DNA from: Tetracentron sinense
Lineage: Eukaryota; Streptophyta; Magnoliopsida; Trochodendrales; Trochodendraceae
DNA length: 64,000 nucleotides
Assembly (NCBI GenBank): GCA_015143295.1
Contig: CM026554.1
Span: 28,781,531-28,845,530, forward strand
Reading direction: 5' to 3'
Part shown: piece by piece, positions 7,748 to 60,770 of the stretch
Layout: each line of letters starts with the position of its first letter
How positions within the stretch are numbered: position 1 is the stretch's first letter
The notes under the pieces: model-generated
What the model was told of the DNA's origin: nothing
What the model saw: only the letters and a program-made list of their open reading frames with translations
The model's database searches: none
Made by a program: the position numbers and the translations under genes

Positions 7748-10042
7748 TGTAGAGACCCGAATTTAGTTCATCGGCATTCGTGTCATTTATTTGAATTTCT
7801 TAGAATATATTTGTTTGATTTTAAATGCATATGTTCCTATGGGAATTAATGTGGAATGCCTAGTTGTAGAAAGCCAAAAGTTTTGGAGTTTTCTTTCACC
7901 ATCATCCAACTTGATGAGACATTTTGACCTCTAAAGACTTGAAATTAGGACATCACTATTATATAAGAAATTGTTCCCCTTCGAATGAAGATTCCAACGC
8001 ATTTTGAATCGTCAAATTCCAATAACCGAGTCAAAAATTACGGGTCTTTTACCGAATCGGGTTTTGGAAATAATATAAAAAATCAGACATGTCAAGGTTC
8101 GATCGATCGGAGCTACCAACCCGATCGATCGGACAAGACCAATAGGGTCTAATAGATTGGCCCTAAGTCCCGATCGATCGGGGATCGTGCACAGAAATAA
8201 AATAAAAAACGCGATTTTTTGACTTTTTGGCTTCCCAAGGATTCCAAACTCTATAAATAACCTTCTAACTCATGAGTTAGGGTTTCTATATGCTTCTAAA
8301 CCTAAAAGAGAGAAAAGGAGTTTTCTAAGAGATCAAAACAAGGAATCTTAAGGAGTTCAAAGATTAGATCAGAAAAAGGAAGAAGAAAGCTTGAAGATCG
8401 GGATCGAGTCTTATTCGCAAGCGATAGATCATAGGGAAGCGATCAAGTGAGGTAAATAACGAACCTAGTTTTTCATATCTTGAATATTAACCTAAAAGAT
8501 GAATTAAAAGAGATAGCTCTAAGTAAGAACCTAAAGATAAACAAGATTTATGAATTTTTATTGTTCCTGATTTATTAATTTATGAATCGTTAAATTAGGA
8601 TGCGAATGTTATATTTTGTTTATGCTTCAACAATGAGATTGAGATTTATATTGAATGTATGTGGATATATGAGGAGGATGTGATGAATGTATGGAATTGA
8701 ATGGAAGATATGAAAGAATTTGAATGATTGAGATGAATTATTTGTGGGATTATAATTATATGTTAGTTTGATTTTGTAATCATAATTCATGAGAATTATT
8801 ATTGATAAAATAGCTGGTATTATGATATTGATCTCGATTAAAAAAGGAGAGTTTAATATTTAAGTTAGATTGTGACATGTGTATTTAAATATAAACTGTG
8901 ATTATAGATTATTGAATTAATAGAAATATGAAAGATTGTGTGTTTATTTTAGTGATATATATTTAGGTAAAGGAACCTTCGATGAGAGTCAAGTTTGCCT
9001 AGGCCTGGTTAACATAGTGGAATGAGACGCTATGGTGAGATGTCCTATGACCCTTAACTATTAGTCTTATGTACAATTTTAACCAAAAGTGTATCACTAT
9101 GCACTCACCAATGAAAAATATGCACATGTATGAAGAGAGATCTAAGGGCACTAATAAGATTTCAAGTAAGACCAAAAACAAAGTAAGTATGTAATAAAGA
9201 AAGATACACGAAAGCGATAATGCATGTTTATGTTTTGCACCACCGAATACCATCAAAAGGGTGATAAGTATACCAAAGTAAGTAAGCCGTCGTACCGAAA
9301 AATGTACTGAATCGTCCGTGCCGGATAATGTACAAAGGGTAGTATCTCGGTAAAGTAAAGTATAGTAACCCCTTTTCTTATACAGTAAAACGGTATTTTA
9401 ATTTATTACCGATGCATGTGGATGTATTGTTCATAAAATGATAAAGTAAGAAGTATGAAAAGTAAGAAAGTAAGAAAAGAAAGAACGAAAAGAAAACAAT
9501 TGACATAATGCACATGTTCGTTTTCCACACTCTGATTTATGAACTGAAGTATGAAATACATGTATGTTAATGTTCATTATATTATTTACTATTATTCGTT
9601 ATAGACGCAGAGTAACTTGTTACTCAGTCAATGACTTTGTTATCAGCAGGTTCTAGTTTTGACATCTGTGCACCCGGACCGTGGGAATAAGAATAATACA
9701 TAGAAGAACCTAAATGTAATTATCCCAAAGAAGAACGGGATCTTGATCGATGACCCTACTGTTGAAGTTGATTTATTAGTATTTAAATTTCAAGGAGACT
9801 TTAATTGACTTTATGGAGAATCATGTTTAGTTTAGTTTCATGATTATGATCATGATGAATGATCAGGATTTTATTATATTTTAGTTGTAGTTATAGATTA
9901 CTGATATAGTTGATGTTATTAATGGAAGAAATTTTTAGGTTCGCATTTTAGTATGCCTTAAATTCTTTTAACACGATGGTTTGTTAAGTAAGTCACATGC
10001 CAAGATCTCACATTCTCCTAGGTGGGGTTTTGGGGTGCAACA
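7748..10042 (+). repeat. Element B 5' LTR (2295 bp)
   Basis: It aligns along its whole length with 26817-28620 except for a block (8151-8605) missing in the 3' copy. It starts TGTAGAGACCCG and ends TGCAACA. The U3 part holds three copies of the palindrome 'cgatcgatcg' near 8100-8181 and a TATA box at 8252. The remainder is AT-rich and contains purine-rich 'aagtaagaaag' runs near 9440-9490. Confidence 0.93.
8252..8259 (+). promoter_or_regulatory. TATA box of element B LTR
   Basis: The sequence is tataaata in a GC-richer context, about 70 bp downstream of the last 'cgatcgatcg' copy. The equivalent position in the 3' LTR is deleted. Confidence 0.7.
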
Positions 10043-10370: not shown

Positions 10371-11728
10371 TGTTGATGATAGTTATTGAAAAGTTTGACT
10401 TGTGAAATTTTGAGCTTAAGAACGTTGTTCATAATCCAATAAAATAATGACACGTGGCTCAATAGACATTCTGACATATTACATACTAAAATCCTCTTTT
10501 GAGATTTGATCAACAGAATTCCATGTTTATCTGATAATGATGATTTTAGTCATTAATGATTACTGATTTTCAGGCTTTTATGCTTTTAGTTCATGTAAAT
10601 GATTATGCTCCTTGATGACTTTTTTACCCCTACACCATTGATGAAAATTGAAACTGTTGCGCTTTTAATTCTATTGATGCAGATTCAGGCTCTAACGCCT
10701 TTGGATATTGATTCAAGCTTCAACGCCTTTTTGATGATGATGGGCTTGGTATGGATTAGTACCCCCCTCTGTGTACCTTTCTGATGACCTATACCAGAAA
10801 GAGGATTTGTTCTGTCAGGGGTGAACGGTACGGATTGGTACCCCCCCTGTGGGAATGAGTGTGACTGTTTCCCTTCATTACCTATTCCAGTGAAGCATGA
10901 ATTACTTCCTTGGCTGACAATCAGGGAGAAAGCATTGAGGATGGATTTTTCCTCAGTTTCTCTTAAGGCCTGACGGGATGGGTGTCTTCGTCCAACACCT
11001 CCGCTTTCCCTATTAGACTTGAGATGATTATTATTATTATTATTATTATTATGATTACTACTTAGAGGAGTGTTGCTGTCTGAACACTAATACATTACCT
11101 CAATAGGACAGTACACCATGAAAGCGTATGACCCGCTTTCACGATGTAGTTACCAACTGCTTTGGGGGAGGATGATGAGTTGTGGTTTGGAGGGCTTAGA
11201 TAGAATTTGTTAAAAGATGGATATTATAAATACCGCTTTTAACCTTTGAAGAATATATCCAAAAGCTTTGGTCATAAAAGCTTAAAGGAGGTATGGTGAA
11301 AACGCCTTTATCTTGATGGAATCCAATATTTTCTCTCTAAAAGTCGGTTACAAAAATGGTTATGATAGCTGTACAAGTTAGTTATAAATTATGTTGATCA
11401 CCTATAAATAGAGGTGACCCCCTCTTGTTTCAGGGAGAGATTTTTCCCAATTCCAATAAGATTTCCTGAAATCAGATTTCCAACCAGAATTTACAGAGAG
11501 AGAAAGTAAAGGATTCGTCAAGGAAAGACATTCTGTCACTACTGTTCTTCATTGTTCTTCCTTCTCTCCCTCTGAATCATTTCTTTCTTTTTCCCCTTTC
11601 TTTCTTGATATTCCTGAATCATTTTCTCCCAAAATAACTCAATTTAGAACGGTGTGGATATCGGATTTAAGTTACATTGAGGTTACAGTAAACCCTATTT
11701 CTTCAAAAATCAAAATTACCCCTCAACA
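10371..11728 (+). repeat. Element C 5' LTR (1358 bp)
   Basis: It is nearly identical to 22420-23868. It holds a short run of a 28-bp unit ending 'cctttggatattgattc' (one full copy plus a variant), an ATT microsatellite near 11030-11051, paired 'aaagcg'/'cgcttt' words near 11124-11142, and a TATA box at 11403. The transcribed end 'ttcttcaaaaatcaaaa' is shared by both LTRs. Confidence 0.95.
11403..11410 (+). promoter_or_regulatory. TATA box of element C LTR
   Basis: The sequence tataaata lies in 'cacctataaatagaggtg', and the same site is present in the 3' LTR at 23543-23550. It would drive the genomic RNA of the element. Confidence 0.75.
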
Positions 11729-11730
11729 TT

Positions 11731-11747
11731 TGGTGACTCTGCTGGGG
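11731..11747 (+). other. Element C primer binding site
   Basis: The sequence tggtgactctgctgggg lies two bases after the 5' LTR end. It is of the 'tggtgactc.gctgggg' type that I know from Tat-lineage elements. I cannot assign the tRNA with certainty. Confidence 0.6.
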
Positions 11748-11771
11748 ATTCTGTAACAATTTTGAGAGAAA

Positions 11772-13045
11772 ATGGTGACTAAAAAAAGTGCTTCGTCTCA
11801 AGCACATGTTATTCAAGAAGAAAATAGGGAAGAATCTCATACTTCCAGAGTGGAAGTTCCTGATTTCTCTGCTGTTCTTGAGCCTTTTCTTGCTCAGTTT
11901 CAAGCGGCCCAAGTACAGATGCAAACTCAGATGCAGGCTATCTAAGCCTAGGTAGCAGCTCAATTGGCAGCAGCAGAAAAGCAGATGCTAGAGTTTTTCA
12001 AGAAAGCCCACCATGAAGATAATGTTCACAATTTGGAGAGGTCACAAGAGCATACACCTTCTCCATCTCGGCATGATGAAGAGAATGATATCCATGATAA
12101 TCCTCCTAAGAAAGATCCAGTTCTTTCTTCTTCACCCTGTAATCATCATGAACAAGAAGGAAGACATTCTTCATATATGACGGCCGAAGATTTTTCTGAG
12201 ATGTTCGAAAGGGAGCAAGCAAAACACTCCGGACTTTCAAACGCTTTCGATGCTAGACCGTCTTTTTCGGCAAGGATCATGAGAATGGAATATCCAGTAG
12301 GATATGTAACACCCCAGTTCACCCTTTACAACGGAAGAACTGGAAATGCTCGAGAACACGTGATGCATTTCACTGATGCTCTAAGCAGATATACCAACAA
12401 TGAAGAGCTCCGCCTTCGCGAATTTGCTAAATCTCTGACTCATCGTGCCTTTACTTGGTATACAACTTTGGCCCCAAATTCCATTCATTCTTGGGAAGAA
12501 ATGGTCAATATCTTTTCCAAGAAATTCTTCTCTGTAGAAGATCGTGTTACTCTCAATACTTTGTCAGAAGAGTGACAAAGACCTAATAAAGATCTGACAC
12601 ACTATGTTTGCCGTTTTTGGTATTTGGTTCTAGACTGTCATGAACAAACAACTGAGGAGCAACTTGTACAAATATGTGTAGATGGAGTAGCAAAAGAATA
12701 CAGAGCTTATTTGGAAGTAGCCACTATCCCCTCTTTTGAAAAGCTTTATGATATCTTCCAAAGGCTCAATACAGTCATATCTAGGGTAGCTCCACCAAGG
12801 TATGAAGACAGATATGGTAAGAGGGACAAGAGAGAGTCAGCAATGGCGGCAGAAAATTCTAGAAGGCGGCCATTCCAAAGAAGTACCTCTTATCAATCTG
12901 ACAAAAGGCTAAAATATAATCCAGAAAACATTCCACCGCCTTTTCCCTGCAGCATGGCAGAAGTATTGCGTATTGTAGAAGTTTGGATTGCTGATGGCGT
13001 TTTGTACTTGCCATCACCATTCCGAAAGCCTACAGAAGAGACAAG
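11772..13045 (+). pseudogene. Element C gag
   Basis: The frame opens at the ATG at 11772 (MVTKKSASSQAHVIQEEN) soon after the primer site. It runs in one frame to about 13045 with stops at 11943 (TAA), 11949 (TAG) and 12573 (TGA). The Gag core is at about 12300-12800: YVTPQFTLYNGRTGNAREHV, FTDALSRYTNNEELRLREFA, AFTWYTTLAPNSIHSWEEM, the common retrotransposon Gag pattern. A 1-base shift near 13045 moves the frame to the protease (...YCVYHQTVRHSTNDF, the usual zinc-knuckle-like H-x-C region of this lineage). The protein would form the capsid of the element. As it stands it cannot be made whole. Confidence 0.88.
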
Positions 13046-13995
13046 CAAAGTAACAAATACTGTGTGTATCACCAGACTGTACGCCATTCAACGAATGATT
13101 TTTTTCTCTAAGGCGGATTTTCAATGACAAAATAGTTGCTGGACATTTGAAAATCTCAACGACTCTTGAAGGATCTGTCCATCAGGATCCTTTGCCAAAT
13201 CATAAAGGGAAAGAAGCGGTTGCTATGGTTTGTCATAATTCAAATCATATGGAGGAGAAAGAAATTGAAGAAGAAATTGTCTCTAATGTTCCATCAGTAG
13301 TAGAAACTCTTTCACAGAGTTCAAAGTTTAAAAATTTCTTTGACCAAATGCATTTCTCAAAAGCGGCAAGAATAGCTGCAATAACGGATTTGACATCAGT
13401 TGCAGAAGCTCATTCAGAACATTGCTTTCTTGCCTATTCTGCCACAAGAAAGGTAATGCCAGAAATGCAAGATGTAAGTTTTACCGCCGATGATATGAAA
13501 GCTTCATCAACAGCTCATAACAAGCATTTATATGTTACAGCTTTAATAAACTCCATTAAAGCAAAAAGGGCACTGATAGACCCTGGTTCTTCCCTAAATC
13601 TTATTCCATTATCAACAGCAGTAGCAATGGGATTAGATGCTTCAAAGATTTCAAAGCAGCCTATAGAAATATCAGGATTTGGAGGACAGTGTCAGAACAC
13701 TATTAGTTATGCTACTATTAATCTTCAAGTGGGACCAATAAATTCGGCAATAAGAGTCCATGTCATTGAGGCCAATGTAAGCTATCATATTCTTCTCGGC
13801 TGTCCTTGGATTCACAAATTCCAGTTAATACCATCAACATTTCATCAATGTGTTAAGGGGGTATACAAAGGAAAAGTTATCAGAATACAAGCAACTGCTA
13901 CGCCATTTGATAAAGCCGAAGCTCATATCTCAGAAGCATTGTTCTATGATGAGTTGACTGAGGAAGGTGAAACAGCTTTTGAAATGGCCAAATGA
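13046..13995 (+). pseudogene. Element C protease region
   Basis: The frame is open from about 13046 to a TGA at 13993-13995 and continues in the same frame into RT. The aspartic protease is at about 13530-13860, with the catalytic triad as IDPGSSLNLIPLSTA, followed by SGFGGQ and the closing HILLGCPWIHKF motif. The usual D-(S/T)-G is D-P-G here, a form common in Tat elements (family knowledge). It would cleave the polyprotein. A highly charged linker (about 13996-14160, KRPRDESGKIEVQRG...) and a further TGA near 14170 follow. Confidence 0.85.
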
Positions 13996-14217
13996 GTTAT
14001 GCTACCATCATCCACTGTTTCAACGCCATCAGAAAATTCAAAGGCGTCAAAAAGACCACGCGACGAAAGCGGGAAAATAGAAGTTCAAAGAGGAAACTCT
14101 ATCAAAGAATCAAGGGCTGGAGGCTATAAGAGGGTGATACAACCAGATGGAAAGGTTGTATACATCTTATGACAATCAAAGGAAACTGATTCATCAAAAG
14201 AAAATCAGACTCCTACG

Positions 14218-15017
14218 ATGAATCAGATATTTCAACCTGAAGAAACAACTGAGATTGGGGAAGCACCAGAGCAGATGCAGGATAGTGTAAAAGCGGTACA
14301 AGAAAGTCTTGAAGAAGTAAATCTTGCAGAAAATTTATCAGAAAAACGTCAAGTACTTATCAGTTCCAAGTTAGTCCCAGAAGAAAAAGAAGAATTGGTA
14401 AATTTGCTCAAAGAATACAGGGATATTTTTGCGTGGAATTATGAAGAAATGCCAGGGTTAAATCCTGTATTGGTCACACATAAATTGAATATTGGGCCAG
14501 GGTATGTACCAATAAAGCAATTGCCAAGGAAATTCAGACCAGATATTGAAGACCAAATCAAAATAGAAGTTGAAAAACTCTTGAAAGCAGGCTTTATCAA
14601 GCCAATTCAACACCCTACTTGGCTAGCCAACATTGTACCAGTTAAGAAGAAGAATGGTCAAATCCGTTTCTGTGTTGACTTCAGAGATTTAAACAAAGCA
14701 TGCCCAAAAGATGAATTTCCTCTACCCAATATGGATCTATTAGTTTATGCAACAGCAGGTCATGATGCTTTTTCATTTATGGACGGTTACAGTGGGTACA
14801 ACCAGATTAAGATGGCAGCAGAAGATGTAGAAAAAACAGCCTTTCGGACACCTTTTGGGAATTTTTATTATACAGTAATGTCATTTGGGTTGAGAAATGC
14901 CGGAGCTACTTATCAAAGGGCTATGACAGCCATTTTTCATGACATGTTTCATAACACAGTAAGAAGAGTTGTTATCAAGTCCCAATTTAGAGTCAACATT
15001 GTTATCAAGTCCCAACA
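14218..15017 (+). pseudogene. Element C reverse transcriptase, catalytic box deleted
   Basis: The RT of a Gypsy element reads in order: LLKEYRDIFAWNYEEMPGL, HKLNIGPGYVPIKQLPRKFR, ANIVPVKKKNGQIRFCVDFR, FPLPNMDLLVYATAG, FSFMDGYSGYNQI, KTAFRTPFGNFYYTVMSFGL, and GATYQRAMTAIFHDM. After HNTVRR the sequence should continue through the YVDD active site. Instead it reads VVIKSQFRVN and then repeats IVIKSQ, with the text between this point and VQAI missing. Loss of YVDD and of the following thumb region means no reverse transcription activity. The frame then shifts into the RNase H part. Confidence 0.92.
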
Positions 15018-16193
15018 TTGTACCAGGCAATTGCATCCATGACAGCTCCAAGCACGGTTAAAGAGTTAAAAAGCTTTCTAGGAATGATATCCTATATAAG
15101 AAGATTCATTCCAGGACTGGCAGCTGTCATAGTACCTCTTATGCCACTCCTACGGAAGAATTGTAAGTTCAAATGGGACTTATTGCATGAAAAAGCTTTT
15201 AAGCAACTCCAACAGATGATGAGTTCAACAGCAACCATGATGGCGCCAACTCCAAAAAAGCCTTTGATCCTGTATTTGGCTTCAACAGAAACCGCTATTG
15301 GAGCTCTTCTAGCTCAAGAAGATCTGTCTGGTTGTGAACGGCCAATATACTATCTCAGCAGAATTCTCAGAGATGCAGATTTAAGATATCCTCGGATTGA
15401 AAGAAGTTGTTTATCTCTGATCTATGCTTTACAAAAATTCTGCCATTATTTACTGTCTCATAAGATTTTTCTGATTACAAAATCTGATCCAATTAAATAT
15501 CTCATGTCAAAACCAATTCTTTCAGGACGAGCAGCTAAATGGCTTCTTTCATTATCAGAGTTTGATATTACATGTCTTCGCCCTCGTGCTATCAAAGGAC
15601 AAGCAGTAGCAGATTTATTAGCAAATTTTCCAGGAAATGATGATCTGACATTAAAAGAAGAACTACCCGGAGAATTACCTGAAGCAATGACTATTGAAGC
15701 AATAGAGGAATGGTTCATGTATTTTGATGGATCTAAAACTACAGATTCAGCTAGGGCAGGTATTGTGTTAAAAGTTCCTGGGGGTGAGGTAATGTCCTTT
15801 TCTTTCAAACTGGATTTTCCTTGTTCTAACAATATAGCAGAATATGAAGCTCTTCTCATAGGTTTGTCAATTGCTAAAGAGTTAAAAGCCAAGAGAATAA
15901 ATGTAATGGGGGATTCCAATTTGGTAATTAGCCAAATGGAAGGATCATTCAATGTAAAGGATGTTGGTCTAGCTCCATATAGAACAGCAATTCAGAAAAT
16001 AATGACCAGTTTTGATATGGTAGAATTCAGGTATCAAGAGCGCACAAGAAACCGCTATGCTGACGCACTTGCTACTTTGGCATCAAAACTAATATTTGAA
16101 GGAGAATCTTCTCAAGTGGTAGTCAAAAGGCGTACAATAGCTACGCCTCTAATGAGGGAATTATGTGAAAAAGAATCTAAAGAAGCAGATTAG
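15018..16193 (+). pseudogene. Element C RNase H plus archaeal-type second RNase H
   Basis: The frame begins with the end of the RT connection (VKELKSFLGMISYIRRFIPG). The Gypsy RNase H follows (LILYLASTETAIGALLAQE, RPIYYLSRILRDADLRYPR, RAAKWLLSLSEFDI). A second, archaeal-type RNase H is at about residues 235-370: WFMYFDGSKTTDSARAG, NIAEYEALLIGL, VMGDSNLVISQM and RNRYADALATLA, so all four acidic residues D, E, D, D are kept. The double RNase H marks the Tat lineage (family knowledge). The frame ends at TAG 16191, and the next part is in another frame, with the shift at about 16265. Confidence 0.92.
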
Positions 16194-16265
16194 AAAGAAC
16201 TAATTTTGAAAGACATTTACCGCCTTCATGATTCAACAGTGGTCCCTACTACAACATTGAAAGTC

Positions 16266-17788
16266 TTAAAAATTTCTTGCAGATAAATGGGGATCTATAT
16301 TTCAAAGGGCCTGAAGGCGTTCTGATGAGATGTGTTGGAGCAAGAGAAGCTAAAGAACAAATGATGCAAATCCACACAAAAATATGTGGGTATAATCCCT
16401 CTGTTAGCCTGTATAGGAGGTTACAGCGTTTTGGGGTATACTGGCCAACAATGGAGATAGATGTTGTTATGTTACAGAAAGAATGTTCTGATTGTCAGAT
16501 ATTGCCAGATAGAGAAGAATGTCACTTTACAAATTCTTGGGAAGATTGGAAGAAACCATACAATGACTACTTCATAGATGGGATAATGCCTACTGATCAA
16601 AATGAAGCTTTCAAGTTTAAAAAGAAAGTTGTTAAATTCTACTTTAACAAAGGAGAATTATTCAGGAAATGATATAATGGTATTGCTCTCAAATGTCTGT
16701 CTGGAAAGGAGGTTGAAATAGCATTACATGAAACTCATAGTGGGGATTGTGGTGTTCATCAAGGAAAAAGCAAGTTGTTTCAACACATTTTGGGATTGGG
16801 ATATTATTGGCCTACAATGGAAGCAAATTCACATTTATATGTTCAAAGCTGTCATCAGTGTCAAATCAGAGGAAATGTCATTCATGCACCTGCACAGTCT
16901 CTACAGTATGTCTCTACACCCTGGCCCTTTCACACTTGGGGGCTAGATTTAGTTGGACCTGTTAATCTTCCTGCTGAAAGATATGTTTGGATACTTGTAG
17001 CTACTGAATATTTTACCAAGTAGGTAGAGGCTATACCATTAAGAAAAGCTACAGGTATCATGGTGGCTAAATTTATCAAGGAAAACATTATTTGCCGCTT
17101 TGGAATACCAAAGGAGGTTGTCACAGATAATGGAACGCCTTTCATAAATTCTAATGTGAGAGAGTTATTGGAGAAATATGATATCAAACACAAGAAGTCA
17201 ACCCCTTATTATCCTAAAGGGAATGGGCAAGTAGAAGCTACTAACAAGATTATTCTGAAGATAATTGGAAAGATGATAGAAGGTGCTCATAAAAAATGGT
17301 GTGAAAAGCTTCCAACAACACTTTGGGCTTACAGAACTTCAGCAAGGATTGCAACATGTGTTACTCCTTTTTCTCTAGTGTACGGAACAGAAGCTGTTGT
17401 ACCTTTGGAAATTAAGATACCATCCACAAGAATTGAAGTATTTGATGGAGAAATGGCAAGCCTTCAAACTGCTAGGTTAGCTCAGTTGGAAGTTGTGGAT
17501 GAAAAGCGTGAAGTTGTTGCTATGAAGACAAAAGCGTATCAAAGAAAAGTTGCTAAAGTGTATGACAAGGCTGTACAACATAGAATCCTAAAAGAGGGTG
17601 ACTTAGTCCTCCGAACAGCTATTCATATTAGGAATGGTACAAAAGCGGGGAAGTTTACTCCTAATTGGGAAGGGCCATTCTTGATAAGGCAAAGCTTTGA
17701 TAGCGGTTACTGTCTTTTATCTACGCCATCTGGTGAAGTATTACATGATCCTATTAATGTGAAATGGTTAAAGAAGTATTATGCTTAA
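16266..17788 (+). pseudogene. Element C integrase with duplicated zinc-binding module
   Basis: The frame is open from about 16266 to TAA 17788 with stops at 16670-16672 and 17021-17023. There are two H-H-C-C-like modules. The first, at about 16319-16500 (MRCVGAREAK, IHTKICGYN, CSDCQ), is followed by a 60-residue linker. The second, at about 16690-16866 (CLSGKEVE, HETHSGDCGVHQ, YYWPTMEANS, CHQCQ), is the canonical one. The catalytic core has WGLDLVGP, TDNGTPF and, 35 residues on, the E of GQVEATN, so the D,D35E triad is complete. The C-terminus reads EGDLVLRTA... to KWLKKYYA. The stops alone would prevent activity. It is followed 71 bp later by the 3' end of the convergent passenger gene. Confidence 0.92.
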
Positions 17789-17859
17789 TAAAAGGAATGA
17801 ACAAAAGATTTTCATATTCATTACTGTCAAAATTTACAAGGTCAATAAAAGAATAACTT

Positions 17860-19139
17860 TTACAAAATTTCTGACGTAAAGCCTTTTTCATTCAAAGATA
17901 CAAGTCTTTGAGCAGAAGCTCTTAGACGAGTATACTCTTCATGATCTGTTTTAATCTCTTCTTGTAAAGCTTTTAAGTTGTCTTGTGTTTCAGATATCTT
18001 CTTTTCTTTTTCTTCTAATATGGCTTGATGGTGGGCAATCTCTTGATGAATAGCATGAATGCTATTTTGTTCATTCAGCACCGCTTTCTTGAGTTCTTCT
18101 GCTCTAATTATTTTGCTAGTATAGGAACTGTTCAGCTTAGCAAAATTTTTAGCCTGAAAAAACGTCATGGATAAACTGTTTACGAAATCCATCAGCCATT
18201 TTACATTAACATTAATGTCTTCCAGCTCCTTTAGCTCCTGGCTCCAATCTTCAAAGGTCTTTATCCTCAAAAGCGTAAGATGAGGCTTGATGTCTCTAAC
18301 TTTTCTGATAATAGAGCAAACTGTCTCTATGCAGCCTGCTCTGATGATACGATTCTTCAAAGAACAAGAAGAGGTAATGTCTTGATAGCGCTTTACTATC
18401 TCTGACCAAAGAGGAAGAGAGCTTTCAGATACAGCATACCGCTTCAGAATTTCTTCAGGAGAACCTATTGATGGCGACTCAGTTGAGACAGAAGGAGTAG
18501 CAACCTCTTCACTTACGAAATTTCCGACGAAAGCAGACAAATCTAATGAAACAGTTTTCGGAGGGATTGCTGCATGAAGATCAGAGCCAGTGATTAGTGT
18601 TTCTTCATCAGTAGTCGTATTGATCTCCATACCAGAATCAATAATTGGGATCTCTTCATGAACGTTTCCTAGAGCTGTCTCTGTGGTAGTGGGAATCCTT
18701 TCATCAATAATATCCTCTCCGATAATTCCTTCCTCAACATTCTGTTCTGAACAACCGACGATGACGCTTTCAGTAGAAGCAATCACTTGAGCATTAACGC
18801 CCTAGGTAGAAGGCACTGGTGTTTGGATATCATCAGAATGATTGAGACTAGTTGAGAGAGGAAGATTTTCAAGAGGTTGTTGTTCAGAGTTCTGAACCAC
18901 AGGAGAGAAAAACACTATTTCACTAGTGGAAGGAGGTTCCACCTCCATAGGTTGTTCTGAAGCCTCAACTCCGACAACTTTTTCACTTGAAACATCTTCT
19001 ATTTCAGCCTCAACAACATTTGATTCCTTGTCCTTGGGAGCGTCGTTAAAAAGAACCTCAACTATTGCAGAAGCAGATATGATATTGTCTTCAACATCAA
19101 CAGGCTCCAATATTTCAGCTTGAACGCCTTCAGAAAGTC
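17860..19139 (-). pseudogene. PMD gene coding exon 3 (acidic region and coiled coil)
   Basis: It starts GA-CTT-TCT (Gly-Leu-Ser after splicing) behind the acceptor 'attttgaag'. The first part is acidic (VEDNIISASAIVEVLFND, EAEIEDVSSEKVV). A TAG at 18804-18802 interrupts it. The C-terminal 110 residues form a coiled coil (EELKKAVLNEQNSIHAIHQE, ILEEKEKKISETQDNLKALQ, EEIKTDHEEYTRLRASAQRL). The frame ends SEIL-stop at 17860. Coiled coils often mediate dimerisation, so self-association is an inference. Confidence 0.82.
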
Positions 19140-19248
19140 CTTCAAAATAATACATATGTTGTTAGAACACTTTATTAATGCATTATGAATGAGAAAATAA
19201 ACAAATAAGTACATATATTGATAAAACGTTTTTTTTAAAGTAACTAAC

Positions 19249-19747
19249 CTGCGCTTTCAGAACTAGCAATAGTAGCCTCAATCATAAGAGGTGATGAGGA
19301 TTGCACAGTCCTTTGGAGAAGAAGTGATTTCGCCTTGATAGCTTGCGATCTCATTCTTTTCGGAGAAATTAACGCTTTAGCTATATCAATGGTCCTCGTA
19401 GGGTTTGCAATCTTCTGAATACCAGAGGCTTTAGCAGGTCGATCTTTCTGCTTGGAAAGTGGAGAAGAACTGGGCTCACTCTCAGGCCAGACATTTGCTA
19501 AGTTTTCAACTTGTACCCTTGCTTCCGCTGATGAAGGGAAGGGAATATCAGCAATATTATCTCTAGGAACACCAAGCCCCACTGGAGTTAATGGAGTTCC
19601 AGAGCTCCCTACACCAATGTCTAAAGGCGGTGCTCTATTCTTTTCTTGGGCTAAAGAAGTTTCAGTCCTTCCTAACTGATGTTGACTTTGTAAATTTTGT
19701 TTATGCATAATCAATGGTTCATTATCTTCACTATCAGAGGAAGGATC
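19249..19747 (-). pseudogene. PMD gene coding exon 2 (acidic, serine/proline-rich)
   Basis: It begins after the acceptor 'tttgttacag' with DPSSDSEDNEPLIMHKQNLQ. It is open throughout, low in hydrophobic structure and rich in S, P and E, and ends ...IEATIASSESA plus the first base of the next codon, before the donor gttagt. No domain is recognised. It is likely a flexible linker. Confidence 0.8.
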
Positions 19748-19835
19748 CTGTAACAAAGTTTTAAAAAAAAAGAGTGTGAAATTGAAAAGCGTATGTATAA
19801 GGAATTATTTTTAAACTTTGAAAAGTATTGCTTAC

Positions 19836-21701
19836 TGATTGACTCTTGCGCTTCTTAGAAGGAGGAGCCTTCTTCTTTATTGCAGTTTTCTTGATTCTAG
19901 GCGCTTTTGGAGTAGCCGCCTTTGAAACAGTAACATTTGAAGGCTGAGGAGGGGTAATGTTTTCCTCTCGAATCTCAAAAGGACCTCCGTCAGCAGATTT
20001 TGATTTTGGCTTTTTGGGTGGAGAAGCTACCGCTTTCCTCTTCTTGCCTGCACCAGGGGGCTCCTTCAAACATTTTTCCTTATCCATAGTCAAATTAATC
20101 GGTTGACTGATCATTGGCGGACTTTGAACAAAAGCTTTGAAAGTACCAATGCAAGCTTTCCAGAAAAGCTGATAGTTCTTCGTGCATCTGCCCATTCTGT
20201 GCTCCCCAGCCAAGTAGAAACCAACAACGAATGACCTCAAGTTTGAAGACCAGCTCTCCATAATAAAAGCTTTCATGGTTTTCTTCAAGGAGAAAGATTC
20301 AACTACACCATCTGGGACACCTTGATCAAGCCCAAATTGCCTCAAACACCGATCAGGGTTGTAAGACTCGAGACAGAAACTGTTTGTCTTGCCGCCATCC
20401 ACACTGAAGAGACCTACTAGGTGACACTTAGATAAAATAGCAAAGCAATGGAGATCCTTCAATAAAATTTCTTCCCGCTCTTCAGAATTTGTACCCAGAA
20501 AGGCCAAAGGAGTTTCAGAATGATAAGAAAATCTTTCAATTCCTTTCAAAGGCTCAATATAAGGCCTGAAGCAAAAACACTTTTCTTTGTCAATAAAATC
20601 AAAGATCAATGCATCCTTCTTCCTGGAAATGCTACTCTACCGCCATGCCCTGGGACTTGGGAAATCTTCAACGGCGGTATCATCAGCTTGTAATGGGGAA
20701 AATTGTCTAGCTGAAGGCGCATAGCCAGGAAAGCGTTCCCACAACCACATCTGGAGGAAAGCGGTGTGAACAAATGATTCTATATTATAAGAACTTGCTG
20801 ACCAAGCTTGACATTTGTGAATCTGATCTAAGTTCTTGTATAGAGTTCCCAAAAAATATATTCCCAAGGGAAAGCTTTGACCATCAGCAAGGTGGAAAGG
20901 CAGAGGAAATAATCTGTCCAAAACTTTATCTGTTGGAGCGCCTTCAAAAATGTATCTTGACAGCCACATGTAGATGAACGCTGTCAGCTCCAAAGGAGAC
21001 TTGTACTCTTTCCCATATTTATATTCTCTAACTCCTGTCTCCTTGTTCACAGGACCTTTCTCTCTGAAGAAGTAGTGTACCCAACCGTCAAAGTTTGGCC
21101 GCCTTGCATGAGATTCCTTTGAAGCTCCCCAAACAGGATTCACTCTTGTTTCCCAAACTAGAGCATGCAAAAGCCTTGCCGCTTTTATCTCTTCTTTGCT
21201 CAAAACAATGTCTTGTATATCACTGTTCCCAAATATGGGTAATCTCCATAACGTCATTACATCTTCCAAAGTAGGGGTAATTTCTCCCCACGAAGTAATA
21301 AAAGTGTGAGTTTGATTGTTCCATCTGGTAACCAGCTGTGATAAGCTATCCGTGTCTTTTCTAACTTCAAAATCCTTTGAAAGCTCTATGGCTCTAAATA
21401 TCTCGGCAGCGTGAAGTTTAGGCCCATACTCTGGGTGAGTAAGTATGTAGTCACACCAGGCTTTTCATCAATTTGTACAGCCGCAATGAGAATTGAAATT
21501 AACTTGTGAAAGCGGAAAATCTTTCCTTTCTATTCTAAACATGGTAGTAGCAAAAGGTGAAGGACAAAATCCTTTAGCTCCGCCAATATTGCCATAAGAC
21601 AAAGCCCACCCATCAGGAGGAATAGCGGTATCCTAGGAGTGATGCATAGCTGAATCCCAAAATTCACTACTTAAAATATTTTTTTGAGAAGAGGAAGTCA
21701 T
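19836..21701 (-). pseudogene. PMD gene coding exon 1 (PMD plus basic linker)
   Basis: The ATG at 21701-21699 is the first after the leader and is followed by MTSSSQKNILSSEFWDSAMH. PMD signature blocks: AWCDYILTHPEYGPKLHAAE, RWNNQTHTFITSWGEITPTL directly followed by EDVMTLWRLPIFG (the TLEDV..L..LP..G core), AFIYMWLSRYIFEG, FPLGIYFLGTLYKNL, FLQMWLWERFPGYAP, and ESYNPDRCLRQFGLDQGVPD. After the domain come GKKRKAVASPPKKPKSKS and APRIKKTAIKKKAPPSKKRK, which look like nuclear localisation runs. The exon ends in TCA before the donor gtaagc at 19835. It contains four of the five stops. Confidence 0.88.
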
Positions 21702-21703
21702 AG

Positions 21704-21962
21704 CTGAAAGCGTAAAAATTGCAGAAATAGAAAAATGGATTACAATGTGTTCTTATATATATATATATAAACATATACATATATAACAATAATAAATATA
21801 CATGATAATAACAAATGGAAGAAGTAGATGGAATGATATAAAGCAGAAATGATCAAAACCACTCGCACAAAATAAAAAGATGAAAAAAAAAACAGCAAAT
21901 ATGAGCATAAGCAGAAGATAGAAACGGTAATAAAAAAAGAGGGTAAGAAAATAGAGACTCAC
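21704..21962 (-). other. Probable 5'-UTR intron of the PMD gene (259 bp)
   Basis: The minus strand has a consensus donor (cttctg then gtgagt at 21962-21957) and a pyrimidine-rich acceptor ending tttcag at 21704, two bases before the ATG. The intron is AT-rich with a TA microsatellite, unlike the leader. Splicing is inferred, not shown. Confidence 0.55.
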
Positions 21963-22114
21963 CAGAAGTTTAATGGATGTTCTGAAACTCCAAATATAAA
22001 TTGAAAGCCTTGATCACCAAAAAAACTTAATCACAGAAGAAGAAGATGAACACTCAGAGTATGTTTGCATGATGAAGAAGATGAACAGTAGGTAATAAAA
22101 AGCTGATTCTTTGA

Positions 22115-22122
22115 TTTTTATA
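22115..22122 (-). promoter_or_regulatory. TATA-like box of the antisense PMD gene
   Basis: The minus strand reads tataaaaa, about 150 bp upstream of the 5'-UTR intron donor and about 410 bp upstream of the ATG. It lies outside the LTR, whose edge is at 22420, so the passenger would have its own promoter inside the element body. Confidence 0.45.
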
Positions 22123-22403
22123 CTGTTTAAACATTTATGGTATGCGGATATCAAGAAGAACGTTTTGGTTTGAAATTTGAAAAAATGTATAATCATAATG
22201 ATACTGGCAGGCTGGCTGCGTAATCCTATTGGTTATAAATCTGATAAGTTATTTCTGTGCAGAATTTGAAAAGACAGCTTTTGATACTCAAGACGTCATA
22301 TTTATGACAAGTATATTATTTAATGATTACAAATATTTTTTAAATAAAGAATGTTTTGTCTGCTCAAACGCCTTTGGTATCCTCAAACCCAAAAGCGTCC
22401 TCA

Positions 22404-22419
22404 CAGACAGGGGGCTAAA
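22404..22419 (+). other. Element C polypurine tract
   Basis: The sequence agacagggggctaaa ends directly at the TG of the 3' LTR. This is the expected plus-strand primer site. Confidence 0.8.
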
Positions 22420-23157
22420 TGTTGATGATAGTTATTGAAAAGTTTGACTTGTGAAATTTTGAACTTAAGAACGTTGTTCATAATCCAATAAAATAATGAC
22501 ACGTGGCTCAATGGACATTCTGACATATTACATACTAAAATCCTCTTTTGAGATTTGATTAACAGAATTCCATGTTTATCTGATAATGATGATTTTAGTC
22601 ACTAATGATCACTGATTTTCAGGCTTTTATGCTTTTAGTTCATGTAAAGGATTATGCTCCTTGATGACTTTCTTACCCCTACATCACTGATGAAAATTGA
22701 AACTATTGCGCTTTTAATGCTATTGATGCAGATTCAGGCTCTAACGCCTATGGATATTGTTCATGCTCTAACGCCTTTGGATATTGTTTCAGGCTCTAAC
22801 GCCTTTGGATATTGATTCAGGCTCTAATGCCTTTGGATATTGATTCAAGCTTCAACGCCTTTCTGATGATGATGAGCTTGGTATGGATTAGTACCCCCCT
22901 CTGTGTACCTTTCTGATGACCTATACCAGAAAGAGGATTTGTTCTGTCAGGGGTGAACGGTACGGATTGGTACCCCCCTGTAGGAATGAGTGTGACTGTT
23001 TCCCTTCATTACCTATTCCAGTGAAGCATGAATTACTTCCTTGGCTGACAATCAGGGAGAAAGCATTGAGGATGGATTTTTCCTCAGTTTCTCTTAAGGC
23101 CTGACGGGATGGGTGTCTTCGTCCAACACCTCCGCTTTCCCTATTAGACTTGAGATG

Positions 23158-23192
<35 letters not shown>

Positions 23193-23868
23193 GATTACTA
23201 CTTAGAGGAGTGTTGCTGTCTGAACACTAATACATTACCTCAATAGGACAGTACACCATGAAAGCGTATGACCCGCTTTCACGATGTAGTTACCAACTGC
23301 TTTGGGGGAGGATGATGAGTTGTGGTTTGGAGGGCTTAGATAAAATTTGTTAAAAGATGGATATTATAAATACCGCTTTTAACCTTTGAAGAATATATCC
23401 GAAAGCTTTGGTCATAAAGGCTTAAAGGAGGTATGGTGAAAACGCCTTTATCTTGATGGAATCCAATATTTTCTCTCTAAAAGTCGGTTACAAAAATGGT
23501 TATGACAGCTGTACAAGTTAGTTATGATTTATGTTGATCACCTATAAATAGAGGTGACCCACTCTTGTTTCAGGGAGAGATTTTTCCCAATTCCAATAAG
23601 ATTTCCTGAAATCAAATTTCCAACCAGAATTTACAAAGAAAGAAAGTAAAGGATTCGTCAAGGAAAGACATTCTGTCACTACTGTTCTTCATTGTTCTTC
23701 CTTCTCTCCCTCTGAATCATTTCTTTCTTTTTCCCCTTTCTTTCTTGATATTCCTGAATCATTTTCTCCCAAAATAACTCAATTTAGAACGGTGTAGATA
23801 TCGGATTTAGGCTAGATTGAGGTTACAGTAAACCCTATTTCTTCAAAAATCAAAATCACCCCTCTACA
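22420..23868 (+). repeat. Element C 3' LTR (1449 bp)
   Basis: It matches the 5' LTR but is 91 bp longer. The 28-bp unit with 'aacgcctttggatatt' is present in about three extra copies (22735-22860), and the ATT microsatellite is longer (about 23158-23191). A TATA box is at 23543-23550. Confidence 0.95.
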
Positions 23869-26816: not shown

Positions 26817-28620
26817 TGTAGAGATCCGAATTTAGTTCCCCGACATTTATGCCATTTATATGAATTTCTTAGAATATATGTCTGATTTTAAATGCATGTA
26901 TACCTATGGAAATTAATATGGAATGCTTAGTTGTAGAAATCCAAATGTTTTGGAGTTCTCTTTCACCTTCATCCAACTTGATAAGACATTTTGACCTCCA
27001 AAGACTTGAAATTAGGATATCACTATTAGATAACAAATTGTTCATATTTGAATGACGATTCCAACGCACTTTGAATCGTCCAATTCCGATGACTGAGTCA
27101 AAAGTTACGAGTCTTTTACTGAAGCGGGTTCTAGAAAAAAAATATCGAACTGTCAGGGTCCGATCGATCGGACAAGACCAGTAGGGTCTGAAGAACCATG
27201 TTATATTTTGTTTATGCTTCAACAATGAGATTGAGATTTATATTGAATGTATGTGGATATATGAGGAGGATGTGATGAATGTATGGAATTGAATGGAAGA
27301 TATGAAAGAATTTGAATGATTGAGATGAATTATTTGTGGGATTATAATTATATGTTAGTTTGATTTTTTGATCATAATTCATGAGAATTATTATTGATAA
27401 AATAGCTGGTATAATTATGATATTGGTCTCGATTAAAAAATGGGATTTTGATATTTAAATTAGATTGTGACTTATGTGTATTTAAATATAAACTGTGATT
27501 ATAGATTGTTGAATTAATAGAAAGATGAAATGTTGTGTGTTTATTTTAGTGATATATATTTAGGTAAAGGAACCTTCGATGAAGGTCAAGCTTGCCTAGG
27601 CCTAGTTAACATAGTGGAATGAGACGCTATGATGAGATGTCCTATGGCCCTTGACTATTAGTCTTAGGTACAATTTAACCAAATGTGTATCACTGTGCAC
27701 TCACCAATGAAAAATATGCACATGTATGAAGAGAGAACTAAGGGCACTAATAAGATTTCAAGTAGACCAAAAGCAAAGTAAGTAAGTATATAATAAAGAA
27801 AGACACACAAAAGCGATAATGCGTGTTTATGTTTTGCACCACCGAATACCATCAAAAGGGCAATAAGTATGTCAAAGTAAGTAAGCCGTCGTACCGGAAA
27901 ATGTACTAAACCATTCGTGCCGGATAATGTATCTCGGTAAAGTAAAGTATAGTAACTCCTTTCCTTATACGTAAAGCGGTATTTTAATTTATTACCGATG
28001 CATGTGGATGTGTTGTTCATAAAATGATAAAGTAAGAAGTATGAAAAGTAAGAAAGAAAGAAAAGAAAGCTACTGACATAATGCACCTGTTCGTTTTCTA
28101 CACTCTAATTTATGTATGTGAATTGAAGTATGAAACGCATGTATGTTAATGTTCATTATATTGTTTACTATTGTTCGTTATAGACACGGAGTAACTTGTT
28201 ACTCAGCCGATGACTTTGTTGTCGGCAGGTTTTGGTTTTGACATTTGTGCACCCGGATCGTGAGAAGAAGAAGAATACATAGAAGAACCTGAAAGTGAGT
28301 ATCTCGAAGAAGAACAAGATCTTGATCAATGGCCCTACTGTTGAAGTTGATTTATTAGTATTTAAATTTCAAGAAAACTTTAATTGACTTTATGGAGAAT
28401 CATGTTTAGCTTAGTTTTATGATTATGATCATGATGGATGAGCAGAATTTTATTACATTTCACTTGCAGTTATGGATTATTGATTTAGTTGATGTTATTA
28501 ATTGAGGAAATTTTTAGGTTCGTATTTTAGTATGCCTTAAATGCTTTAACATGATGGTTTGTTAAGTAAGTCACGTACCAAGATCTCACATTCTCCTAGG
28601 TGGGGTTTTGGGGCGCGACA
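26817..28620 (+). repeat. Element B 3' LTR with internal deletion (1804 bp)
   Basis: It aligns with 7748-10042. About 455 bp corresponding to 8151-8605 of the 5' LTR are missing at 27189-27198, which removes the TATA box and two of the three 'cgatcgatcg' copies. It ends GGGCGCGACA before the flank gttag. Confidence 0.93.
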
Positions 28621-29565: not shown

Positions 29566-30321
29566 GTGGATACCAATAGGGTGGAGTCAGGAATTTTAAC
29601 TTGGGGGGCCGAAGTACATACATCAAAAAAATTAATGGGACTGGGTATGGGGCATAGGGGGGGGGGGGGGGGGGGGGGGGGGCATAGCCCCGAATAATTT
29701 TTTTTTAGTAATGAGTCCATCCTGGTCATAAAATTCGTTAATGTTGCATTCCAAAAAGGAGTTAATTTACCGCGCATTTTCACTTTGGAACGAAATGTCG
29801 GTCTTCATTGGGGCTGCGGCTTCTGCCCACCTTTTTAATACTCACTAATTGTGGTTAGGATTCACTCACCCCTAGAGTTCATCCATTTAACCTTGGTTTT
29901 TAGAAAAAAATAAAAACTTTAAATTGGTTAAGCTTAACCACGATTAAACGAAATGAAATGAGAATACATTTTATGTAGTCAAATGCGGGATGTGCTAATC
30001 ACTACTCTAAAATTACTGTATTTTTATATACTTTTTATTACTATCATCATCATGATTATTATTTTTACACGCGCAATTTGTGTTTAGTGGAATGTGTGTG
30101 TCTCCCTTGCTTGACACACGTCCCTTTTAACATCTATTAACTGTGGTTAAGATTCACTCACATGCTTGACACACGTCCCTTTTAACATCTATTAACTTAA
30201 CTTACACGCGCGATATTTTTTGGGGGCCACTATATACAAAGTTTACATATTATTATTATTATTTTTTTTAAAAATTATCCATATAAAATACTAAACTTTC
30301 AAAAAAAATTTAGGGGCCATG
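29566..30321. other. Repeat DNA with a 26-base G run and foldback MITE fragments
   Basis: 29575-29830 begins 'ggtggagtcaggaatttta' and contains a run of 26 G at 29657-29682. 29846-29960 and 30106-30200 are partial copies of the 'tgtcccttttaacaccc...gattcactcacccctaggg' repeat seen many times to the right. No gene is seen. Confidence 0.6.
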
Positions 30322-31058
30322 TGTCACGGGCAAAGCACGTAACTAGTCAAATCTCATGCGACATTTGATCGATTCGTTGACCAAGTTAGCCTGTTCGGTC
30401 AGTTGCCTAGAAATAAGAATAAGCACACCACAATACACAAGAAATAAGTAAAGATCAATAATATGCTAACAAGATAACGTGGAAAAGAATAGTCCTCTTA
30501 GGCTCTTGGAGCACCTATCCCTAGAAGAACATGAGAGAGTGTATCTTTGGACTTCATCTCGGCCTTGCCAAAAGTAAGGGAGGTGGTAGTTTACTTGAGT
30601 GAGTTGTCTTTGTACTATCTTTGATCACTTGCTTCCTTAGTGTCTCTATTTTTTTTTTGCATAGTGACTTGTAACCTTTACCTTGATGCAATACTATTGA
30701 TCTTTGTTTCTTTCTTGTGAATAGTGGTATGTTTATTCTTGTTTCCTAGGTAACTGATTGAACAGGCTGACTTGGTCAATGAATCGATCAAGTGCCGCAC
30801 GGGATTTGACTAGCTACGTGCTTTGCCCGTGACAATTGCTCTCTCATGGTCTTCTAGGGATAGGGTGACTCCAAGAGTCCAAGAAGATTCATTTCCACCT
30901 TATCTTGATGCAATACTATTGATTTTTGCTTCTTTCTTGTGTATTGTACTATGCTTATTCTTGTTTCCTAGGTAACTAACTGAACAGACAGACTTGGTCG
31001 ATGGATATCAATCAAGTGCCGCATGGGATTTGACTAGCTATGTGCTTTGCCCATGATA
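30322..31058. repeat. Inverted and direct copies of a Copia-type LTR end
   Basis: The word 'tgtcacgggcaaagcacgt' starts at 30322 on the plus strand. Its reverse complement ends at 30834 and again, with changes, near 31058. The accompanying sequence ('ctagtcaaatc', 'gttgaccaagt', 'tgcctag', 'aagaataagca') is shared by all three. So one LTR-end copy lies on the plus strand and two on the minus strand, about 220 bp apart. No coding part of the element is present. Confidence 0.6.
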
Positions 31059-31065
31059 GATGGCG

Positions 31066-32724: not shown

Positions 32725-33040
32725 GGCCACCCTTGCCATGGCCATGGGCACCCATTGATGTCCATGCACACCTCAAATCCCTGATGTGTACTTCAGTAAG
32801 CATTTTAGATAGATCTCCCGGTCATCCGTAGTGCACGCGTATCTGCACACAAAAGAGAGCAGGCAAAGAGTAGGAACTCGTCCGAGGTGACTGGCATTTA
32901 ATGCTGCATTTAATGCCAAGATAGTGTTTCCCACCTACCATTGTAGAGGTGGGATCAGTCCCAGGAGACTGGGCAGTAGTGCCAGATCTCATTACGTGTT
33001 AGGATACGCGATCGTTGACAATAGGACGACGGATACGTCG

Positions 33041-33235
33041 TCAGAAGGAGGACGTAATCGTCACGAGTCCGTCGTCAAAATGAGGACGTGATCGTTGTCC
33101 GTGAGACCACGAGTCCGTCGTCAAAATGAGGACGTGATCGTCGTCCGTGAGACCACGAGTCCGTCGTCAAAATGAGGACGTGATCGTCGTCTGTGAGACC
33201 ACGAGTCCGTCGTCCATACGACCACGGGCCCGTCG
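33041..33235. repeat. 46-bp tandem repeat in LTR of element D
   Basis: Copies start at 33082, 33128 and 33174 ('gaggacgtgatcgtcgtccg' and on), with a shortened copy before and a diverging one after. The unit is rich in CpG and in 'cgtcgtc'/'gacgac' words. It lies in the U3 part of the LTR, upstream of the TATA box. Confidence 0.85.
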
Positions 33236-33664
33236 TCGAAGAGACGACGGAAATGAGTTCAAACGATAATACCACACTGAGGATGAGCTCGTTACTATCA
33301 TACTTAGGTTTTTACGAAATTTACCCATTACAAATTGCCCATTTATGATACTTTGAACGTGGTTCAGAGTGTCATAAATATAGTGAAACGGCGGAGGAGA
33401 AGATACAGCTAACCTCAGGATGAATGATAGGTCACATACTCTGCACGCGAAGGCATAGCGTCGTGCCAGTTGTATTGCGCGTGCCGAAACGTCATACCTC
33501 ATAAATGCTTGGCTGGCTGTCATCATTACCTTCCAGACGCTTCGTTTTTCCCGACGGTTACTTAACTCGGTCAGAAGACCATCCTGTCCTTTACTTTGTC
33601 TGCATGCGTGGACACGCGTACGGTACAGATCGAGGTCATTATCGTCCTTAAAGTTATGGACCGG

Positions 33665-36298: not shown

Positions 36299-36530
36299 AG
36301 TTTTTATATATATATATATCTTCTTTTGTGATCACTGTGTTGCAACCGCTTGACCCGGAATAATCATCTCGTTCAAATAAGACAAATAGCACATAATTAA
36401 CTCGTGATTGGATATAAATCTCATAACGAATATAATTCACCATGTCATTCTAATAACGAATTGTCAAAGACGCAGATTAACACTACGGACGTAATTCGAC
36501 AAAAAGTCCATTTCATAAAGATGAACTTAT

Positions 36531-36820
36531 GGTAACTCGTGGTGGGACACCATGCTCAGAGGACATTCCATTAGTATAAGCCGCCAAGATGCTCAGATGG
36601 CAATTCCTTTGTATGAGCCACCTGTGTCCCGTGGTGAGTACCCTGTTCGTGTGAAATGCATTCGCCGTGGTAACTCGTGGTGGGACACCATGCTCAGAGG
36701 ACATTCCATTAGTATAAGCCGCTAAGATGCTCAGATGACAATTCCTTTGTATGAGCCACCTGTGTCCCGTGGTGAGTACCTTGTGCGAGTGAATTGTACC
36801 CGTCGTGGTAACTCGTCTAG
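36531..36820. repeat. 138-bp tandem repeat
   Basis: The marker 'ggtaactcgt' occurs at 36531, 36669 and 36807, exactly 138 bp apart. The two full copies differ at few positions and the third is only a start. It lies between the passenger's 3' end and the integrase stop, so it separates two converging genes of element D. Confidence 0.9.
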
Positions 36821-36900: not shown

Positions 36901-37545
36901 TTAGAAAAACTGTTTTAAATTCATAATGTTCCACGACTTTTGAATTACATTACCTTGTAAGTCTTTAAGGTAGTACACCCCGGGACTCCCGACACGGTCC
37001 ACGATGTATGGCCCTTCCCAGTTGGGACCCAGCTTTCCGCTATTGATTTCTCGTGTATTTTGAAAGACTTTTCGAAGAACGAGATCTCCGACTTGAAGAA
37101 TCCTTTTCCGTACTTTCTTGTTGTATGCCTTTCGTAATTGTTGCTGATACCGTTTCATCTGAATGCTGGCATCTTCCCGCTTTTCTTCTAGCAAGTCTAA
37201 ATGAATAGCCATTAGTTCGACGTTTTTGTCTTCGTCTCCGTGCTTCTTCCGGGAACGTGTTGTTGGCGGGCAAACTTCGGTGGGAATAACAGCCTCCGCC
37301 CCGTATGCCAAAGAGAACGGGGTTTCGTTCGTAGGGCTCCGCGGTGTTGTCCTGTATCCCCACAACGCGTTATGTAATTCGCTGGTCCACTTTCCCTTGG
37401 AATCTTCCAGTCTTCTCTTGAGGGCATTCAAAAAGTTCTTGTTGGCTGCTTCGGCAAGGCCATTCCCCTGAGGATAATAAGGAGAAGAGAAGATGTGCTT
37501 GATTTTCAACTCTCGGCAAAAGTCGGCAATGAGTTTTCCCGTGAA
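36901..37545 (-). pseudogene. Element D integrase, C-terminal half
   Basis: This continues in frame after the TAG at 37548-37546: FTGKLIADFCRELKIKHIFS, YYPQGNGLAEAANKNFLNAL (the E of the D,D35E triad), GYRTTPRSPTNETPFSLAYG, EVGDLVLRK-like KRILQVGDLVLRKVFQNTRE, GPNWEGPYIVDRVGSPGVYY, and the end MNLKQFF and TAA. One CAG-to-TAG change explains the stop that separates it from the upstream part. Confidence 0.9.
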
Positions 37546-39222: not shown

Positions 39223-39244
39223 CTCGAACAGAGGTCTACAACGG

Positions 39245-40250: not shown

Positions 40251-40326
40251 TGACCTGTAATTGCTATTTGAGCGGTCGGGTGAGGCATAATCACACTTCT
40301 GCGACGCCAGCTAGTCTCCTCGTATT

Positions 40327-60689: not shown

Positions 60690-60770
60690 AAGGAACTTAT
60701 CCTCCCAAGAACAATCATAAGTCAATTTGGGTACCAACCAAAATGGTGTGGGTACTGGGGGGAACATATA

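Follow-up and report, generated by a model that had tools for sequence, protein, structure and literature searches.

A 64,000-nucleotide stretch of the Tetracentron sinense genome (assembly GCA_015143295.1, contig CM026554.1, positions 28,781,531 to 28,845,530 of the forward strand; hereafter, the window) contains a Tat-type Ty3/Gypsy retrotransposon at 10371-23868, which carries a plant mobile domain (PMD) gene on the strand opposite to gag-pol. The gene consists of three exons separated by two credible introns, and the present copy is broken by stop codons. It is probably a lineage-typical antisense accessory gene of the element, decayed together with gag-pol, that would have been spliced only from its own strand. 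An earlier interpretation of the letters alone (the sequence-only reading) had described a complete passenger gene; the finding is real in its anatomy, while its completeness and novelty were overstated.

The gene lies between the integrase frame and the 3' long terminal repeat (LTR). Its parts, in the direction in which it would be read and with coordinates within the window, are the following:

22113..22122, minus strand: TATA-like sequence named in the sequence-only reading; chance level
21704..21962, minus strand: probable leader (5'-untranslated region) intron, 259 nt; GC 0.26, T 0.54; donor rank 2 of 216, acceptor rank 4 of 352
19836..21701, minus strand: exon 1, 1,866 nt (622 codons), start codon at 21701; PMD, then a lysine/arginine-rich stretch; four internal stops
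19748..19835, minus strand: intron 1, 88 nt; GC 0.24; donor rank 45 of 216, acceptor rank 8 of 352
19249..19747, minus strand: exon 2, 499 nt; linker; no Pfam match
19140..19248, minus strand: intron 2, 109 nt; GC 0.20; donor rank 1 of 216, acceptor rank 13 of 352
17860..19139, minus strand: exon 3, 1,280 nt; PEARLI-4 match and helix-forming C-terminus; internal stop at 18804

The joined exons measure 3,645 nt and give 1,214 codons and a stop, with no frameshift needed. Five in-frame stops break the copy (TAG at 21635, TGA at 21470, TGA at 21467, TAG at 20639 and TAG at 18804). In 500 base shuffles the number of stops averaged 77 and never fell below 50, and the five alternative reading frames of the joined exons contain 54 to 106 stops each. 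The sequence-only reading had placed the gene antisense to gag-pol, between integrase and 3' LTR, and the coordinates confirm this. Its count of 1,214 in-frame codons was correct in exon coordinates, lengths and frame, but it did not mention the five stops.

Splice sites were ranked with a consensus matrix among the 216 GT and 352 AG sites that the minus strand holds between 17400 and 22415. Each of the three proposed introns begins with GT, ends with AG and is rich in T and poor in GC, with GC fractions of 0.20-0.26 compared with 0.42, 0.43 and 0.39 in exons 1 to 3. This base composition, together with the splice ranks, makes the introns credible. The lengths and ends of the two coding introns were as previously described, and so were the coordinates (21962-21704) and ends of the leader intron, whose donor and acceptor are both high-ranked. 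Both coding introns are 3n+1 long, and therefore the retention of either would break the frame.

The assignment of exon 1 to the PMD family, also made in the sequence-only reading, was borne out when the PF10536 profile was run. Two adjacent stop-free pieces of exon 1 matched it, with E 8.7e-33 (114.4 bits, profile positions 2-197 of 347) and 2.2e-9 (37.4 bits, positions 231-346) at a curated cut-off of 34.9 bits; the two pieces, one from each half of exon 1, cover nearly the whole profile. The Pfam scan covered five of the seven stop-free stretches of the gene, that is, all except the first 22 codons and 18805-19137. Lysine/arginine-rich stretches follow the PMD (by eye), and these are compatible with a nuclear location of the predicted protein. 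In exon 3, PEARLI-4 (PF05278) matched residues 121-282 of a 313-residue piece (17863-18801) with E 7.5e-8 and 32.7 bits, the cut-off being 29.9. Since this piece has a coiled-coil-like composition and gives many weak matches to unrelated families, PEARLI-4 is a weaker assignment than the PMD.

A search with exon 1 (622 residues, X at the stops) found 25 proteins, all of them listed with PF10536 and 20 from named angiosperms. The best homologue, 34% identical, is a hypothetical protein from Tetracentron (P0001), which has an N-terminal FAR1 domain and a trace of PEARLI-4 (E 1.8, residues 814-887). The last 203 residues of exon 3 were aligned with the final 170 of each of the 25 homologues, and here the C-terminus of P0001 scored 75, with a shuffled maximum of 62 (z 8.1, 300 shuffles). 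Because P0001 resembles both ends, exon 3 can be tied to exon 1, and the occurrence of the same two ends in one predicted protein supports a joined product. An AlphaFold model of P0001 (22 rows) had a mean pLDDT (predicted local distance difference test) of 43 and a pTM (predicted template modelling score) of 0.32, values too low for a fold search to be meaningful; in its C-terminal stretch, from about residue 809 onward, helix predominates and most block means exceed 70. Comparison of P0001 or the exon 3 piece with solved structures gave no match with E below 0.06. A tree was built from 26 PMD rows, none of them a labelled clade reference. In it the window protein groups with P0001, P0006 and P0008 (86/81), and a nine-row set (100/100) adds five Cannabis proteins and stands apart from the 17 others. 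Long branches meet in this tree, a kind of join against which the tree program warns.

Judged by its domains, the host element is a Tat-type Ty3/Gypsy element, most likely of the Ogre group. The region 15018-16190 matches both RT_RNaseH (E 5e-25) and RVT_3 (E 2.5e-20) in Pfam. Two RNase H domains are reported only for Tat elements, and in Ogre and Retand the second domain follows the first RNase H and precedes integrase (PMC6317226). The order found here, RT_RNaseH, RVT_3 and then the integrase core (in the piece from 17060), is this arrangement, and the presence of a second RNase H besides the one after the reverse transcriptase (RT) upholds the Tat assignment of the sequence-only reading. 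A PMD in the extra open reading frame (ORF), an Ogre trait, is found through PF10536; it is reported in 57% of Ogre elements, being frequent and not universal (PMC6317226). The corresponding Retand trait, antisense Transposase_28 (PF04195), is reported in 23% of Retand elements (PMC6317226) and, with two exceptions, in every one of 63 Retand clusters (PMC11963269), and it gave no match at E up to 1 on the five of seven stop-free gene pieces scanned.

These frequencies bear on the origin of the gene. A host PMD gene might have been captured with its introns by this single element, or inserted into it, as a mere passenger. Introns are typical of host genes. Host PMD genes, for their part, are ubiquitous in angiosperms (PMC5418596). 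Both points would fit such an event. However, the PMD-A1 and PMD-A2 clades are encoded exclusively by Gypsy elements (Ikeda 2017, PMC5418596), and this, with the frequency of PMD in Ogre elements, makes a one-off passenger unlikely. In addition, published antisense ORFs likewise lie between pol and the 3' LTR (Vicient and Casacuberta 2020, PMC7264820), which matches the position and strand of this gene, and the window protein lies apart from the 17-row PMD group, in a tree whose long branches and unlabelled clades limit this point. Capture is thus regarded as very improbable. The term passenger was also dropped because antisense accessory ORFs and PMD extra ORFs are already published as features of the lineage.

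The other parts of the element that carries the accessory gene are as follows:

10371..11728, plus strand: 5' LTR; starts TGTTGATG, ends ACA; from pairwise alignment with the 3' LTR
11729..11749, plus strand: probable primer binding site, TTTGGTGACTCTGCTGGGGAT; adjoins the 5' LTR
11772..17788, plus strand: decayed gag-pol with gag, protease, RT, RNase H, second RNase H and integrase; Pfam on five pieces
22407..22419, plus strand: probable polypurine tract, directly 5' of the 3' LTR; judged by eye
22420-23868, plus strand: 3' LTR; from pairwise alignment with the 5' LTR

The primer binding site is perhaps of the tRNA-Arg type, as judged by eye. The gag match (23.8 bits) is slightly below the Pfam cut-off of 24.1, and the integrase frame ends at 17788. 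In the alignment of the LTR pair, whose count takes in four bases preceding the LTR start, 1330 of 1361 aligned bases are equal (97.7%, gaps aside), with 93 gap columns and a Kimura two-parameter distance of 0.023. The 3' LTR contains a 28-nt tandem repeat of 4.8 copies at 22731-22862, and the 5' LTR lacks 83 nt at the site of this repeat in the alignment, a length difference within one element. No clear continuous host frame was found across the rejoined flanks of the element. Repeats at about 7748-9332 and 26817-27931 resemble the LTRs of an outer element, with the Tat-type element nested between them.

The gag-pol region, read by eye in three frames, shows eight stops (11943, 11949, 12573, 13993, 14170, 16191, 16670 and 17021), three frame changes and an internal loss in RT. 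The stops at 13993 and 14170 sit between protease and RT and perhaps are not lesions, since a gap separating two frames is the normal condition of Ogre elements at this place (PMC6317226). Stop density is alike in both genes, with eight in about 2005 codons of gag-pol (by eye) and five in the 1214 codons of the antisense gene, which suggests that they decayed together.

Several results weigh against the reading as an accessory gene. A neutral simulation at half the LTR divergence gave a mean of 1.3 new stops, with at least five in 2 of 400 runs, and at twice that rate at least five stops appeared in about 14%, so the five stops exceed the expectation from LTR age. Taken with the similar stop density of gag-pol, this surplus speaks for either methylation-driven mutation or damage to the template prior to insertion, so that the antisense gene may already have been broken when the element inserted. 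The element also has no clean target-site duplication, its flanks being GTAGA and CCAGA with three of five bases in common. At the C-terminus, only P0001 among the 25 homologues is clearly similar, since the runner-up in the list of the ten best scores, P0008, falls within its shuffled range (50 vs 54). The search with the joined 1,214 residues scored 7,993 candidates with none at E 0.001, perhaps since low-complexity words filled the candidate list, and a search with a 275-residue piece found nothing among 384 candidates, perhaps since these were limited by length. Sister copies were sought with the PMD piece in prokaryotic genome contigs (15 pattern stretches, none confirmed) and in viral contigs (no match), as well as with the integrase in viral contigs (four stretches, none confirmed), results that say little on plants.

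The remaining points of this kind concern the joins. The donor of intron 1 is weak (rank 45), and the proposed pairs are not unique: 17 of the 67 GT-AG pairs tried for intron 1 and 12 of the 53 tried for intron 2 join open, the proposed pair being among them in each case. The exact intron boundaries are therefore probable ones. Exon 2 alone showed no similarity to P0001, the one protein tried (626 of 1000 shuffles reach the score), and the region of the exon 1/exon 2 join showed a weak one (10 of 1000). With weak and alternative joins and an exon 2 that has no detected relative, exons 1, 2 and 3 could be separate antisense ORFs split by T-rich inserts or by decay. The 2025 survey of Retand clusters, whose 104 antisense ORFs came from an ORF finder and which mentions no introns in the available part of the paper (Vicient 2025, PMC11963269), would fit this. 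The three low-GC, T-rich GT-AG stretches with mostly high-ranked sites argue for a spliced gene instead, and so does P0001, which alone resembles both exon 1 and exon 3. Separate ORFs without introns are considered unlikely.

A spliced accessory gene would work as follows. In an active element, RNA polymerase II would transcribe gag-pol to the right from the 5' LTR, and the antisense gene to the left from sequence close to the 3' LTR. Splice sites would be usable in the leftward transcript alone; up to three introns would be removed from it, and translation would yield a PMD protein that is nuclear, about 1,200 residues long and equipped with a helical tail resembling PEARLI-4. The genomic RNA would hold the introns as CT...AC, which is not expected to be a spliceosome substrate, so they would be kept by reverse transcription and copied intact in each cycle. 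Intron 1 indeed reads CT...AC on the sense strand of the element, which supports the earlier argument that an intron opposite in sense to the genomic RNA is kept through the retrotransposition cycle.

As for transcription signals, the TATA-like sequence outside the LTR was rejected as promoter evidence, because 1,384 of 2,000 base shuffles of the AT-rich 714-nt stretch hold at least one. An upstream ATG occurs at 22070 within the supposed leader, and candidate plant poly(A)-like motifs are found past the stop (AATGAA at 17822, AATATG at 17818). The claim that the element carries a complete second transcription unit is not supported for the present copy: the frame has five stops, the TATA box is at chance level and no transcript was seen.

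Any antisense transcript would be the complement of genomic RNA, and a possible double-stranded-RNA role has been proposed for such transcripts (PMC7264820). Accordingly, the RNA and not the protein could be what matters, pairing with genomic RNA in its 3' part and feeding small-RNA silencing, with the frame as a relic. A 1,214-codon frame with few stops and a near-full PMD profile is not needed for an RNA role, and this explanation is judged rather improbable.

Regarding the protein, MAIN and MAIL1 act in silencing (Nicolau 2020, PMC7156037; Ikeda 2017, PMC5418596). By analogy with them, we tentatively suggest that the element-borne PMD protein might modulate the chromatin or silencing of the element, although we would not favor this over its absence. 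Somewhat nearer to an even chance, Tat antisense genes in general, with PMD in Ogre and Transposase_28 in Retand, may be multi-exon and spliced, with an N-terminal domain, a basic or disordered middle and a helical C-terminus. If so, the separate antisense ORFs of the surveys would be exons of one gene, encoding one protein with testable selection, expression and partners, and the antisense orientation would let a retroelement keep its introns cycle after cycle. Should the introns prove real and conserved, spliced genes that ORF-based annotation splits or misses would be present in a large class of plant retrotransposons. This would also bear on whether silencing factors of the MAIN/MAIL1 type arose from an element-borne protein.

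A second Tat-type element is found inverted at about 33.9-41 kb; its minus strand encodes RNase H, RVT_3 and integrase. Its gag-pol spans about 36901-40953 (minus strand) and its antisense gene 33891-36225 (plus strand). This gene gives a weak Transposase_28 match (E 0.018, below the cut-off), and its second part is charged and coiled-coil-like by eye. Two T-rich stretches in it have GT-AG ends, one of 87 nt (34489-34575) and one of 48 nt (35407-35454). The shorter one ends beside an in-frame stop, and its two sides join in frame. Against introns, the first stretch is open in frame, and the second would be a short intron for a plant. The gene is broken, with further stops at 35010 and 35223 and a frame change near 35220. 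We regard this second antisense gene with possible introns as a lead, which makes two of the two Tat-type elements recognised in the window, where no systematic search for them was made. The antisense gene of this second element is flanked by tandem repeats of 46 nt (33016-33245) and 138 nt (36530-36805), and repeats of such a kind have been reported for Retand elements (PMC11963269).

Elsewhere in the window, the clearest host gene noticed is an AP2-domain ORF of 297 codons at 53379-54272 (plus strand, E 6.4e-14). ORFs at 59136-62389 (plus strand) resemble, by eye, a broken Ty1/Copia element with a zinc-knuckle gag, and inverted and direct repeats of about 80-230 nt at 30316-31064 are possibly a DNA-transposon remnant.

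Compared with known systems, the gene is closest to the PMD extra ORFs of Ogre elements, with which it shares the Tat lineage, the second RNase H before the integrase and the PMD, whereas introns and a PEARLI-4-like tail are unmentioned in the available parts of those descriptions (PMC6317226, PMC5418596). PMD was also the most frequent non-canonical domain in a 2022 orchid survey. Like gene23 of maize Grande and the Transposase_28 ORFs of Retand, the gene is antisense and placed between pol and the 3' LTR (PMC7264820, PMC11963269), but the Retand ORFs carry Transposase_28 instead of PMD (PMC11963269). For gene23, an own promoter and a nuclear protein have been reported, in a paper that asks for attention to antisense and spliced transcripts (PMC7264820). 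No description of introns in Tat antisense genes was found in the literature searched, a limited search with key earlier papers outside it, and as far as these searches show, the intron layout and the PEARLI-4-like tail are the addition of the present case. Arabidopsis MAIN and MAIL1 share the PMD, but are host PMD-C genes that act in silencing outside elements (PMC7156037, PMC5418596). The arrangement is the reverse of the laboratory indicator cassette, in which an intron in sense with the element is lost on retrotransposition, while the introns described here are antisense to the element and so would be kept. HBZ of human T-cell leukemia virus type 1 (HTLV-1) is spliced, and its protein is not known to be related to the PMD protein. 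This gene, too, runs antisense to gag-pol within a reverse-transcribing element (named in PMC11963269), but the element is an animal retrovirus, and the antisense promoter lies inside the 3' LTR (PMC7264820). Overall, the antisense accessory gene is an established feature of Tat elements, whereas its introns appear to have been little noticed.

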